Positions 23,932 through 63,380 of a DNA stretch of 64,000 nt are shown piece by piece. Each line of letters begins with the position of its first letter. Positions within the stretch are counted from its first letter, which is position 1. The notes under the pieces are model-generated. The model was not told the DNA's origin and searched no databases. It saw nothing but the letters and a program-made list of their open reading frames with translations. The DNA is from a bacterium (lineage in GTDB: Bacteria > Bacillota > Bacilli > Lactobacillales > Streptococcaceae). The position numbers and the translations under genes are program-made. The stretch is from contig CAJNBT010000005.1 in NCBI GenBank assembly GCA_905221085.1, forward strand, positions 62,001 through 126,000. Direction: 5' to 3'.

Positions 23932-23975
23932 TCTATTTCCCCTTTTTATTTCCTTTAACATACTTCACTTATCTA

Positions 23976-24079
23976 ATACTCTTCGAAAATCTCTTCAAAC
24001 CACGTCAGCTTCACCTTGCCGTACTCAAGTACAGCCTGCGGCTAGCTTCCTAGTTTGTACTTTGATTTTCATTGAGTAT
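23976..24079. repeat. RUP element (copy 1)
   Basis: A 104-bp element bounded by ATACTCTTCGAAAATC and GATTTTCATTGAGTAT, imperfect terminal inverted repeats flanked by TA. The interior (CTTCACCTTGCCGTACTCAAG) is shared, inverted, with the second copy at 63289-63380. These ends match the pneumococcal RUP, a non-autonomous element thought to be mobilised by an IS630-type transposase. It sits in the trp leader between the T-box terminator and trpX. Confidence 0.85.
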
Positions 24080-24109
24080 AAACAAGCAACGCCATCGTTT
24101 TCTTTCCAT
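24050..24109 (-). other. Short ORF with strong ribosome site, ending in the RUP
   Basis: GGAGG lies 5 nt upstream of an ATG at 24109, directly after the T-box terminator. The frame reads MERKRWRCLFILNENQSTN and stops inside the RUP. It may be the 5' stub of a coding sequence interrupted by the RUP, or a leader peptide. A real product is unproven. Confidence 0.35.
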
Positions 24110-32108: not shown

Positions 32109-33062
32109 CTATTCTACCATATTTTTCAAGAAATATTGCTGATAAAAGGCTGGTGGATAGAGCTTTTGCCAATCATTTTGAGGATTTTCTTGATAATAGG
32201 TGTAAAAGTGCTGATAATAGCTATTCAAGTCTTGTTCAATCTGGAAAAATTTGCCCACTAGTGGTCTAATTTGGGGATACCATGCTTTTAGCTCATAAGT
32301 CAGGATATTCTCTCCCTTTTGATAGGCTTCTGCTTGTTCTTTCATCCAAAAAGGATTTTGATAATACAATTGTTGCCGGATATAGCGACAGATGTCCTTA
32401 TCTTGAGAAACTGTAAAATGAGATATTTTTTGTTTCTTATAGGGAAGACGCAATATTTCCAATAAACTACCTTGACCATAGGAAAATTCCTTGATTTGAT
32501 AATGGAGTTTACCGCGTAGATCCTGATAAATCAGGTATTTGATCCTTAAAAGCTGTTTTTCCTTGTCTACTTCCCAAACATAAAAGCCCATATTTTGACT
32601 GAAATAAAGAAAACCTTGTTGCAGACGAGTCAAACGCTCCTTGAGCCAAAGTTTTTGACCCAGCAACCACAGTACTTGGTAACCTTGACTACGGTAACCC
32701 TCACTACGCTCCTTAAGAATTTTTTGAGGCAAGGGACTACACTGAACTTCTAAAGCTAGACTACCATTTACAAACACATCCGCAATCTGTTTAAGTTCTG
32801 GAAACGGGTATTCTAATTGTACCTCTGCCTCTTTTTTCAACCAGTGATAGAGGAATTCCTTATTGGACAGGTGTTCTGGGCTTTCATTTTCAGAGGAATA
32901 ATCACAGTCTTTTAAGGATTTATGGGCAAAATGGGTTCGTACACTTGAACCTTGACGCAAACGGAGCTGACCTCCACAAGCTGGGCAGGTGTATGCTTGC
33001 TTCTCAAGCTTGTCTTCTAACACATTTACTAACTCTCCCCTAGCATCTCTCGCAACAAACAT
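32109..33062 (-). CDS. coiA: Competence protein CoiA
   Basis: Late competence protein required for processing of incoming DNA in transformation, acting with RecA/DprA-dependent steps; the family resembles nucleases. The 317-residue protein has an N-terminal CPACGGQLRLRQG zinc-like motif and a restriction-endonuclease-like core with DVFVNGSLALEVQCS (candidate D...E-x-Q active site). A cin-box sits 22 nt upstream of the ATG. The upstream neighbour is now hicAB, inserted between coiA and the tehB-like gene. Confidence 0.96.
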   Translation of the reverse strand: MFVARDARGELVNVLEDKLEKQAYTCPACGGQLRLRQGSSVRTHFAHKSLKDCDYSSENESPEHLSNKEFLYHWLKKEAEVQLEYPFPELKQIADVFVNGSLALEVQCSPLPQKILKERSEGYRSQGYQVLWLLGQKLWLKERLTRLQQGFLYFSQNMGFYVWEVDKEKQLLRIKYLIYQDLRGKLHYQIKEFSYGQGSLLEILRLPYKKQKISHFTVSQDKDICRYIRQQLYYQNPFWMKEQAEAYQKGENILTYELKAWYPQIRPLVGKFFQIEQDLNSYYQHFYTYYQENPQNDWQKLYPPAFYQQYFLKNMVE

Positions 33063-33083: not shown

Positions 33084-33127
33084 TATTCGTAAAAAAGAAA
33101 AAGATCAGGAAATTTCCTAATCTTCAT
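33084..33127 (-). repeat. Terminator plus cin-box repeat, copy 1 (coiA promoter)
   Basis: Minus strand, in order: hairpin GATTAGGAAA / TTTCCTGATC, a U-rich tract, then TACGAATA (33084-33091), the SigX cin-box that drives coiA. It also terminates hicAB, which stops at 33140. The 44-bp unit recurs at 33801-33845 with a single-base length difference. Confidence 0.9.
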
Positions 33128-33139
33128 CACTCTATAATT

Positions 33140-33517
33140 TTAGAGTTGCAAGCGACTTTCAAGAGCTTGTGTCAACACTTCAGAATAGTTCACTTTCTCA
33201 CGATCTGCAAGTCTGACTAGCCACTCTGGAACCGTAACATTTTTTCGAATCGCTTTATTATTCTTTACGAAAGGCAAGGGATTCACCTGAATCAAAGTCA
33301 CAAATCCATCAGGAGCTTTCAACTCAGCAATGTCACTAGGAGTAGGCAAAGCCAGTCCTTCATCAATATAAGAAGCTAAAACACTCTCAAGCATTTCCCG
33401 AGCATTTTTCATTGCAAGTTCAATCGTTGCTCCTTCAGTCCCGCCTCCAAATTCAGGAAATTCAACCCAGTATCCAGTGCCTTCTCTATGAAAAATAGCA
33501 GGATAAGATTTTAGCAT
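33140..33517 (-). CDS. hicB: HicB-family antitoxin
   Basis: A 125-residue antitoxin. The N-terminal half (YPAIFHREGTGYWVEFPEFGG...ATIELAMKNAREML) is the partial RNase-H-like HicB fold that blocks HicA. The C-terminal part (RKNVTVPEWLVRLADREKVNYS) looks like a ribbon-helix-helix DNA-binding region for autorepression. The start at 33517 has GGAGG 7 nt upstream; the frame is open to 33544, but without a ribosome site. It is second in the operon, after the toxin, as is typical for hicAB. Confidence 0.9.
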   Translation of the reverse strand: MLKSYPAIFHREGTGYWVEFPEFGGGTEGATIELAMKNAREMLESVLASYIDEGLALPTPSDIAELKAPDGFVTLIQVNPLPFVKNNKAIRKNVTVPEWLVRLADREKVNYSEVLTQALESRLQL

Positions 33518-33544
33518 AATACACCTCCACAATTTCCAAATCAA

Positions 33545-33733
33545 CTATAATCCCAAATCTTTTAATATTTTTCTCTCTAAACCTTTTCCTAGATCCTCAT
33601 TACCGTGAACTGGAATAGTGACAAGATAGGGAACCCCTTCTTTCTTAAAATGATGATGACTTCCTCTCTTACGAACTTCAATCCATCCATTTGCAAAAGC
33701 TAATTTTACCATTTCCTTACCTGTGATTGGCAT
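33545..33733 (-). CDS. hicA: HicA-family toxin (mRNA interferase)
   Basis: A 62-residue toxin with a double-stranded-RNA-binding fold that cleaves mRNA during translation. Seen: MPITGKEMVKLAFANGW and the catalytic-histidine stretch RKRGSHHHFKKEG, followed by VTIPVHGNEDLGKGLERKILKDLGL, all characteristic of HicA. AAAGGTGA precedes the ATG. Full length, no disruption visible. It is the first gene of a two-gene cassette bounded by direct repeats. Confidence 0.92.
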   Translation of the reverse strand: MPITGKEMVKLAFANGWIEVRKRGSHHHFKKEGVPYLVTIPVHGNEDLGKGLERKILKDLGL

Positions 33734-33756
33734 TTATCGTCACCTTTCTATCTAAA

Positions 33757-33785
33757 ATTATACTTATAATGCGTATTTTTGTCAA
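33757..33785 (-). promoter_or_regulatory. hicAB promoter with palindromic operator
   Basis: Perfect TTGACA (33780-33785), 17 bp, perfect TATAAT (33757-33762). The -10 is one arm of a perfect palindrome ATTATACTTATAAT (33757-33770), a likely binding site for the HicB ribbon-helix-helix domain. Confidence 0.8.
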
Positions 33786-33800
33786 TTCTTCTATCTTATC

Positions 33801-33845
33801 TATTCGTAAAAAAGAAAAAAGATCAGGAAATTTCCTAATCTTCAT
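33801..33845 (-). repeat. Terminator plus cin-box repeat, copy 2 (upstream of hicA)
   Basis: 45 bp nearly identical to 33084-33127: a terminator hairpin, U-rich tract, then TACGAATA (33801-33808) oriented towards hicA, 68 nt from its start. The hairpin terminates the tehB-like gene (stop at 33852). Both copies are in direct orientation, 673 bp apart. Confidence 0.9.
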
Positions 33846-33851
33846 TCATCC

Positions 33852-34712
33852 TTATTTGATTTTTTTAGCTAGCATGGTCGCAAAGCGTAGTTGAATACGA
33901 TTGCCATTCTCATCGCGACGGTGAAGATGGCCTGTATTTTCATTGTACTTGATCAATTCCCAGTCCTTGTAATAGTCTGCCAATTCCCCTTCTTTAAAGG
34001 TAAATGGGAAGTTCACTGAGCAAGGGTAATCTTCCGTGTCCATGGCACAGACGATAAGATTATAGCCACCAACAGTGGTATGCTCCTGCATATTTTTGAT
34101 AATTTCAGGAATGCGGTCTGCTTGCAAAAACATCAAAACAACTGTCGATATGATGAAATCATAGGCTTGGCTAATACTGGCTGAATTGATATCGTAAAGA
34201 CCGACTGGCATGTCCAGGTCTTCTTGCTCCACAATGCTTTGCAAGATTTCAAGAGCCAGTTCATTTTGATCTACAGCTGTCACATCAAAACCTTGCTGGG
34301 TTAGAAAGAGTGCATTACGACCTTGACCACAGCCCAAATCTAAAGCTTTCCCTAGTTTTACTGTCTGCATAGCCTCTAGTACCTCTGAATGAACAGGATT
34401 GGTATTGTATTTCTTAGGAAAATAATCCTCAGGTTTACAATAAAACTCCAAATACCATTCCACATCATCTGTGGCTGCATCCACTCGGTGCCAGGCTTGT
34501 GGTTGTGCCATGGGATTGTCGGCTCCTGCTTCAAAGAGGTGCTCAGCTAGAACCTCACCATCTTCTGTCAATTCAATAAACTTGAGAGCTCCCTTCAAGA
34601 CAGAAATTTTCCCCCAAGTCCCAACCTTGGTATTGTGTTTCTGCTGAACAGCCTCTGGCATGGTTTCTTTAGTCCACAAGGGCATGCGTTTATAGGCAAC
34701 TAGTTTTTCCAT
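33852..34712 (-). CDS. tehB: TehB-like SAM-dependent methyltransferase with cupin N-terminus
   Basis: A 286-residue two-domain protein. The N-terminal DUF1971/TehB-type beta-barrel (KRMPLWTKETMPEAVQQKHNTK...) is followed by a class I methyltransferase with LDLGCGQGRNALFL (SAM motif I) and VTAVDQNE. Relatives are linked to tellurite or oxyanion tolerance, but the natural substrate is unknown. The start at 34712 (MEKLVAYK) has GAGG 7 nt upstream; the ATG two codons before is too close. It ends just before repeat copy 2. Confidence 0.88.
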   Translation of the reverse strand: MEKLVAYKRMPLWTKETMPEAVQQKHNTKVGTWGKISVLKGALKFIELTEDGEVLAEHLFEAGADNPMAQPQAWHRVDAATDDVEWYLEFYCKPEDYFPKKYNTNPVHSEVLEAMQTVKLGKALDLGCGQGRNALFLTQQGFDVTAVDQNELALEILQSIVEQEDLDMPVGLYDINSASISQAYDFIISTVVLMFLQADRIPEIIKNMQEHTTVGGYNLIVCAMDTEDYPCSVNFPFTFKEGELADYYKDWELIKYNENTGHLHRRDENGNRIQLRFATMLAKKIK

Positions 34713-34726
34713 CTTCATTCCTCTTT

Positions 34727-63288: not shown

Positions 63289-63380
63289 ATACTCAATGAA
63301 AATCAAAGAGCAAACTAGGAAGCTTACTTGAGTACGGCAAGGTGAAGCTGACGCAGTTTGAAGAGATTTTCGAAGAGTAT
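63289..63380. repeat. RUP element (copy 2)
   Basis: 92 bp bounded by ATACTCAATGAAAATC and GATTTTCGAAGAGTAT, matching the ends of the copy at 23976-24079 in opposite orientation. It is shorter inside. It lies between the proC terminator and the tmk upstream region and disrupts no gene. Confidence 0.85.

Follow-up and report, generated by a model that had tools for sequence, protein, structure and literature searches.

Organization of the locus

How does a toxin-antitoxin pair come to stand directly upstream of a late competence gene, enclosed by two copies of a terminator and competence promoter, and what would this position mean for its expression? In the window, by which we mean the whole stretch of 64,000 nucleotides that was analysed, the order on the minus strand is a tehB-like methyltransferase gene (33852..34718; Pfam TehB, E 6e-94), a short unit, hicA, hicB, a second unit and the late competence gene coiA (32109..33062; Pfam CoiA_nuc, E 3.1e-26). 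The unit 5' of hicA (33801..33845) consists of the tehB-side terminator hairpin (33843-33818), a T-tract and the SigX box TACGAATA (33801-33808), and the unit 5' of coiA (33084..33127) of the hicB-side terminator hairpin (33125-33100), a T-tract and again TACGAATA (33084-33091), so that coiA retains its SigX box, as had been proposed. Sequence inspection and a repeat search bear out the original prediction of two copies in the same orientation differing by a single base in a homopolymer, and open reading frames and promoter match agree with it that only hicA, hicB and their own promoter lie between them (33128-33800, 673 bp). The repeat search returned an ungapped core with 95% identity (33091-33127 and 33809-33845), which by eye extends to a shared stretch of 44/45 bp (33084-33127 and 33801-33845). 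With up to three mismatches allowed, the 20-bp hairpin is found in the 64-kb window at the two units only, compared with 0.02 expected matches (listed on both strands because the hairpin is near-palindromic), and TTTTTACGAATA without mismatch is likewise restricted to them; the pair of units is thus not due to chance. Each hairpin folds with 11 pairs and -12.8 kcal/mol (z -4.17 and -3.27), and both score as terminators. TACGAATA occurs at four further places in the window (5743, 21796, 53415 and 63870), six in total compared with 0.96 expected; none of these four has TTTT(T) directly 5' of it, with up to one mismatch allowed.

The two enclosed genes are adjacent, toxin first, and both carry domains of HicAB type II toxin-antitoxin systems. 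HicA (33545..33733, minus strand, 62 aa) matches Pfam PF07927 HicA_toxin (E 1.1e-19, 70.7 bits) and HicB (33140..33517, minus strand, 125 aa) matches PF15919 HicB_lk_antitox (E 2.2e-10, 41.2 bits), with cut-offs of 27 bits each; NCBIfam profiles gave no match for either protein of the window. Relatives in PDB are 6g26, 4c26 and 5yrz for HicA, and 9svk and 5yrz for HicB. The S. pneumoniae HicBA structure 5yrz is of the HicAB family and from a closely related organism, but represents another subfamily (HicB scores 47.4 bits across 70 residues, HicA 31.5 bits). The histidine of the GSH motif is present in HicA, whose GSHHHF aligns with gsAhhf of 6g26, which we take to be an H24A form. For HicA of B. 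pseudomallei, toxicity was reported to require His24 and Gly22 (PMC3969222).

Occupied and empty sites

CoiA was found in all of the 284 Streptococcus genomes, and a scan of genome contigs for CoiA gave 43 loci. We classed 45 loci, namely the window, 31 of these 43 (three of them, L001, L005 and L025, represented by the longer stretches L086-L088) and 13 further genomes; the remaining 12 of the 43 (L031-L041, L043) stand outside this table, and L044-L073 represent shorter stretches, either from these genomes or from ones fetched separately. TehB is in view in 39 of the 45 loci, and the genomes mostly represent one per species cluster rather than a population sample.

Twenty-one sites are empty, 15 contain hicAB, and nine have other contents. 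All 21 empty sites possess exactly one unit, with 65-75 bp from the tehB stop to the coiA start (two of the 21, L082 and L083, have identical coiA genes and are thus near-copies there). All 15 hicAB sites possess two units, in 14 cases within one stretch; the fifteenth (L024) is cut by a contig end, and its left unit, tehB and hicA are found on L131, matched to the same genome (G103) by coordinates. Compared with an empty site, the surplus of a hicAB locus is one unit plus hicAB. This agrees with the proposed insertion 5' of coiA with duplication of the unit, and strains lacking hicAB and having two units, which would have contradicted the proposal, were not seen among the 21 empty sites. Also as proposed, recombination between the two units would yield the structure of an empty site. 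Since one unit is present in 21/21 empty sites, two are present in 15/15 hicAB sites, and no empty site has two, hicAB is, judged by these alignments, a presence/absence cassette that arrived together with an additional copy of the unit carrying the coiA promoter. The coiA-side unit of the window (33084..33127) corresponds to the single unit of empty sites.

The nine other sites comprise large inserts (L075, L076, L086, L087, L088), contig ends (L008, L010, L028) and a RUP-like repeat (L017); the tehB-coiA interval is a recurrent landing place. The five large inserts measure 4.3-13.8 kb. In L075, L086 and L087 the insert splits the unit such that the hairpin stays with tehB and the T-rich tract with TACGAATA or TTCGAATA stays with coiA. 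A second box-like site in L086, 7.4 kb away inside the large insert, is taken as chance. The start of a large open reading frame in L076 resembles a YSIRK-type surface-protein signal, and an open reading frame in L005 shares, by eye, the sequence after it. In L042 and L043 coiA matches as two pieces in different frames, which resembles a frameshift.

Two predicted promoters in front of hicA

The box ahead of hicA reads TACGAATA in 14 of the 15 hicAB loci and TGCGAATA in one. Two of these loci are informative: L042 (recorded as S. pseudopneumoniae 843_SPSE; coiA 62-65%) and L097 (genome G173; coiA 64%). In both, the DNA upstream of the box bears no relation to the tehB side, yet the T-rich tract, the box and the next ~20 nt (GATGATATAGAAGGATTGACA) are kept, the tract being poorer in L042 (7 T of 14). 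In L097 the box is preceded by CCTAACC-T6, apparently what remains of the 3' arm of a truncated unit resembling that of S. peroris (L030). The SigX box thus appears to belong to the hicAB cassette. Because ATATAGAA, which follows the hicA-side box, also stands 3' of the coiA box (ATATAGAAAAGGA), the duplication seems to have extended ~15 nt into the coiA leader. A base other than A at position 2 is seen in 1/14 left boxes versus 7/15 coiA-side boxes (Fisher P 0.035, a weak difference among related rows, calculated before L131 was added), and the conservation of the left box could reflect recent ancestry among close alleles.

Compared with Table 4 of PMC6001120, which describes the SigX regulon of S. 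mitis, the hicA upstream region has TACGAATA with a T-rich tract 5' of it at a permitted distance. According to the text available of that study, coiA of the S. mitis type strain and of SK321 is preceded by TTTTT-0-TACGAATA-22/21-ATG and induced 58.6- and 139.6-fold in RNA-seq, induced genes include such with the boxes TgCGAATA, TcCGAATA and TtCGAATA, distances from box to start codon reach 147-229 nt (the box at 147 nt confirmed by RT-PCR), and sigX dependence of an operon with TTCGAATA was confirmed using a strain without both sigX copies (PMC6001120). An upstream box had been predicted 68 nt from hicA; the box is there, and the spacing is corrected to 67 nt between 33801 and the hicA ATG at 33733, within the range of induced S. 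mitis genes. Because the hicA box matches better than several boxes of induced S. mitis genes, SigX control of hicAB is likely. The available text on the S. mitis SigX regulon contains no word beginning with hic, toxin or antitoxin (PMC6001120).

A second promoter, P2 (33757..33785, minus strand), is a sigma-70 promoter with the sequence TTGACA-17-TATAAT and a 12/12 consensus match; 23 nt separate its -10 box from the hicA ATG, and this spacer contains a likely ribosome-binding site. Repression of the own promoter by HicB is usual for the HicAB family. A degenerate palindrome over the -10 box (33760..33776, minus strand) is a putative HicB operator, and because ATACGCATAATGCGTAT-type palindromes of homologues lie over the same -10 region, P2 is probably HicB-repressed. 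HicB bound at P2 could also block the transcript starting at the SigX box. A 12-bp inverted repeat with one arm in the -10 region and the other 3' of hicB was dropped as a candidate, being absent in L042 and L097.

Divergence and probable exchange of the cassette

Presence and absence of hicAB are scattered over the trees of the flanking genes. The smpB-tehB tree (32 rows, 12 with hicAB) requires 10 state changes versus 9.89 (sd 1.25) with shuffled labels, and the pepF tree (33 rows, 13 with hicAB) 11 versus 10.56 (sd 1.34), L030, L042 and L097 being excluded from the shuffles. The cassette thus appears not to be tied to its flanks, a reading limited by the weak branch support of these trees (6/35 and 7/41 branches starred), and recombination within the flanking genes accounts for part of the random scatter. 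Among 12 mitis-type hicAB genomes (means calculated without L024, L042 and L097), mean dS is 0.105 for hicA and 0.095 for hicB, compared with 0.403 for tehB, 0.371 for smpB, 0.313 for coiA and 0.242 for pepF, so that hicAB dS amounts to about a quarter to two fifths of flank dS. Because of the scattered presence and of hicAB dS far below that of the flanks, the cassette probably entered late, after the flank lineages had diverged, and is exchanged between lineages. In comparisons with L042 and L097, hicB dS is 0.71 and 0.45, and pepF dS is 1.67 and 2.14; since the former values are lower, the cassette appears to have crossed between species groups as well. The dN/dS values of 0.135 for hicA (calculated over codons 11-62 and with the broken alleles) and 0.162 for hicB indicate that both genes have evolved under apparent purifying selection. 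The left and right units of one genome are no more alike than units of different genomes (12 genomes, P 0.36); on this comparison nothing points to a recent per-strain duplication of the unit, and within-genome gene conversion of one unit by the other is likewise unsupported.

In four of the 15 hicAB loci (L002, L016, L022, L023) hicA is interrupted after codon 10-11 by a 106-bp insert, presumably a RUP-like repeat, which ends the frame after 28 residues; hicB is full length in all four, and hicA is whole in the other 11 loci. The insert is 93.5% like positions 23974-24080 and 82.9% like positions 63289-63380 of the window, and 91.7% like the repeat in L017. Because both flank trees require three changes to account for the four broken alleles, the broken allele seems to have been passed around between lineages; alternatively, the repeat could in principle have struck the same hicA site more than once.

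Relatives of hicAB

HicB matches with E <=1e-10 were found in 74 of the 284 Streptococcus genomes. For each of the 13 matches with 95-100% identity, the stretch also contains coiA. The next relatives are five loci at 81% identity, three of which have a tRNA-Arg gene upstream in the stretch, followed by 12 satellite-phage rows (S. anginosus and others) at 76-78% and by loci of other streptococci flanked by csn2 and a CRISPR array at 74-76%; plasmid matches were all below 60%. A satellite-phage-like source of hicAB is plausible. The HicAB proteins of Streptococcus satellite phages (Javan63 and relatives) are the nearest relatives in annotated phage records, but differ in their satellite-phage context, and the related viral contigs L149 and L150 are without a box before hicA.

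Searching the 284 genomes with the hairpin pattern (up to three mismatches) yielded 40 matches in 32 genomes, of which 37 are located at tehB/coiA; these 37 were assigned by comparing coordinates by eye, and L119-L148 were checked for both genes, with tehB seen in 28/30. The other three matches (G208, G258, G259; two to three mismatches, far species) form no pairs; none of these genes was nearby at the G208 and G258 loci, and G259 had no locus. The original prediction had raised the possibility of other cassettes bounded by the same unit, and none was found with the hairpin pattern in the 284 genomes, a search that would miss a divergent unit. A scan of 11 complete genomes for TTTNCGAATA, which carries little weight, was no richer than the reversed control among the matches listed.

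Proposed origin and maintenance of the cassette

We favour the reading, with a probability of about 0.77, that hicAB was captured between tehB and coiA with a duplicated terminator-SigX unit, thereby has two promoters, and is now a presence/absence locus exchanged between lineages. The hicAB operon would have entered the tehB-coiA intergenic region of mitis-group streptococci in an event which left a second coiA terminator and SigX promoter in front of hicA. This promoter, P1, should fire in competent cells along with coiA, and the strong P2 just 3' of it would most likely be held repressed by HicB during growth. Each unit is predicted to terminate the preceding gene, first tehB and then hicB. 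When CSP raises SigX, polymerase would start at both units, the P1 transcript of hicAB would stop at the second hairpin, and coiA would be read from its own box, the outcome being a short burst of both proteins, HicA and HicB, during competence. Such a pulse might dampen translation in competence, protect the cassette against the empty allele, or do nothing much. Exchange between lineages would proceed by homologous recombination, most likely through transformation, and recombination between the units or with an empty-site donor would excise the cassette and leave the coiA promoter intact.

Alternatively, capture might have occurred by chance recombination; the left SigX box would then be a passive remnant of target duplication, and hicAB would effectively be run by its own HicB-repressed promoter. 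That P2 is a perfect consensus promoter, that the relatives at 74-81% identity elsewhere (17 genome loci) have P2-like promoters without T-tract and box, and that the interval accepts other inserts (9/45 rows classed as other) all fit this alternative; the box and leader, however, are kept in L042 and L097 despite unrelated upstream DNA, the box is present in 15/15 loci, and we consider a passive relic unlikely. It is much harder to believe that hicAB is ancestral and that all empty sites are deletions between the units. The empty structure would indeed be the expected recombination product, but S. peroris (L030) lacks hicAB and carries a single unit, 12 oralis/infantis-type loci (L031-L041, L043) show TTCGAATA immediately ahead of coiA without any hicAB match in the available stretch (their intervals otherwise differ), and with its lower dS hicAB coalesces later than its flanks here. 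Least credible of all is a mobile element that brought its own ends, the unit serving as transposon end or att site. Flanking direct repeats, closest non-coiA relatives in satellite phages and the position of three of the five 81% loci beside tRNA-Arg would be in line with it, but there is no recombinase among the open reading frames of the 673 bp, the hairpin is found in the 284 genomes almost exclusively at tehB/coiA with the three exceptions being weak, and the unit is already present in empty sites as the terminator-promoter of coiA itself; the marks of a transposable element (own recombinase, copies at several sites) were thus not seen for the cassette in these searches.

If SigX does switch hicAB on in competent cells, one function is conceivable, although we regard it as rather doubtful: hicAB might act as a competence-timed addiction module, where a swap to the empty allele would leave HicA without fresh HicB, so that the cassette resists curing. 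The loci in which hicA is disrupted but hicB is whole would then stem from cells that escaped the toxin. The idea arises because transformation tends to purge inserts: in a published model, transformation biased to shorter alleles removes them and mobile elements respond by blocking it (PMC4774983); the available text of this work does not mention toxin-antitoxin systems or addiction.

Comparison with known systems

The arrangement had been thought to be undescribed, which holds for SigX and for streptococci among the literature matches listed but not for competence control as such, as competence-controlled toxin-antitoxin operons are known. The hicAB operon of E. coli has a promoter P1, which carries a CRP-S site and is activated by the competence regulator Sxy, and a HicB-repressed P2 (PMC11594946, PMC6957337). 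It shares with the streptococcal cassette the toxin-first order and an upstream competence-regulator promoter combined with a downstream HicB-controlled one (both recognized here by sequence, with HicB control putative), but its P1 is CRP-S/Sxy-dependent, in contrast to the coiA-like SigX promoter, and its P2 makes the antitoxin only, whereas P2 here may make both. In H. influenzae, the competence-regulated toxTA is complete in 17 of 181 strains, and parts of the toxin gene are deleted in 142 (PMC6957337); a patchy operon with an often broken toxin and a kept antitoxin thus resembles our locus, for which SigX control is predicted. ToxTA is, however, not HicAB (HigBA-like according to the modelling in that paper), is under CRP-S control, and has no duplicated competence promoter reported around it in the available text (PMC6957337). 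Strain-specific SigX operons of S. mitis, such as those for Cib-like bacteriocins or a lipoprotein, are likewise accessory and SigX-controlled in some strains, but in the part of the study available no toxin-antitoxin pair is among them (PMC6001120). The reverse direction has been described for the toxin RipA of a S. pneumoniae toxin-antitoxin system, which was reported to induce competence (PMC12795458). Among the literature matches listed, mostly open-access papers, no paper described hicAB next to coiA or placed HicAB under SigX control.

With another regulator and a coiA-like box, the streptococcal arrangement looks convergent with E. coli hicAB and toxTA. Toxin-antitoxin operons would then be under competence control, as read from sequence, by two unrelated regulators, CRP-S/Sxy and SigX, and this recurrence argues that the link between competence and toxin-antitoxin systems is selected. 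The empty, intact and toxin-broken alleles at one site provide natural matched variants in transformable commensals, which makes both the competence-toxin link and the resistance of toxin-antitoxin systems to removal by transformation directly testable.

HicAB relatives next to csn2

Seven of the loci with hicAB relatives (L107, L110, L112, L113, L115, L117, L118; HicB 74-76% identical, hicB at 1501-1875 after orientation) follow csn2 and thus represent a toxin-antitoxin pair inside a CRISPR locus; no title on such a pair was among the matches listed in a literature search for csn2 and HicAB. TACGAATA stands after the csn2 stop in 7/7 of these loci (7/17 non-coiA loci), there without a T-tract and followed by a hairpin, and was rejected as a SigX promoter. 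Csn2 is a full open reading frame in six loci and a remnant in L115 (Pfam Cas_Csn2, 7.7e-72, for L107 only), and type II-A CRISPR repeats follow hicAB in six of the seven, L115 being the exception.
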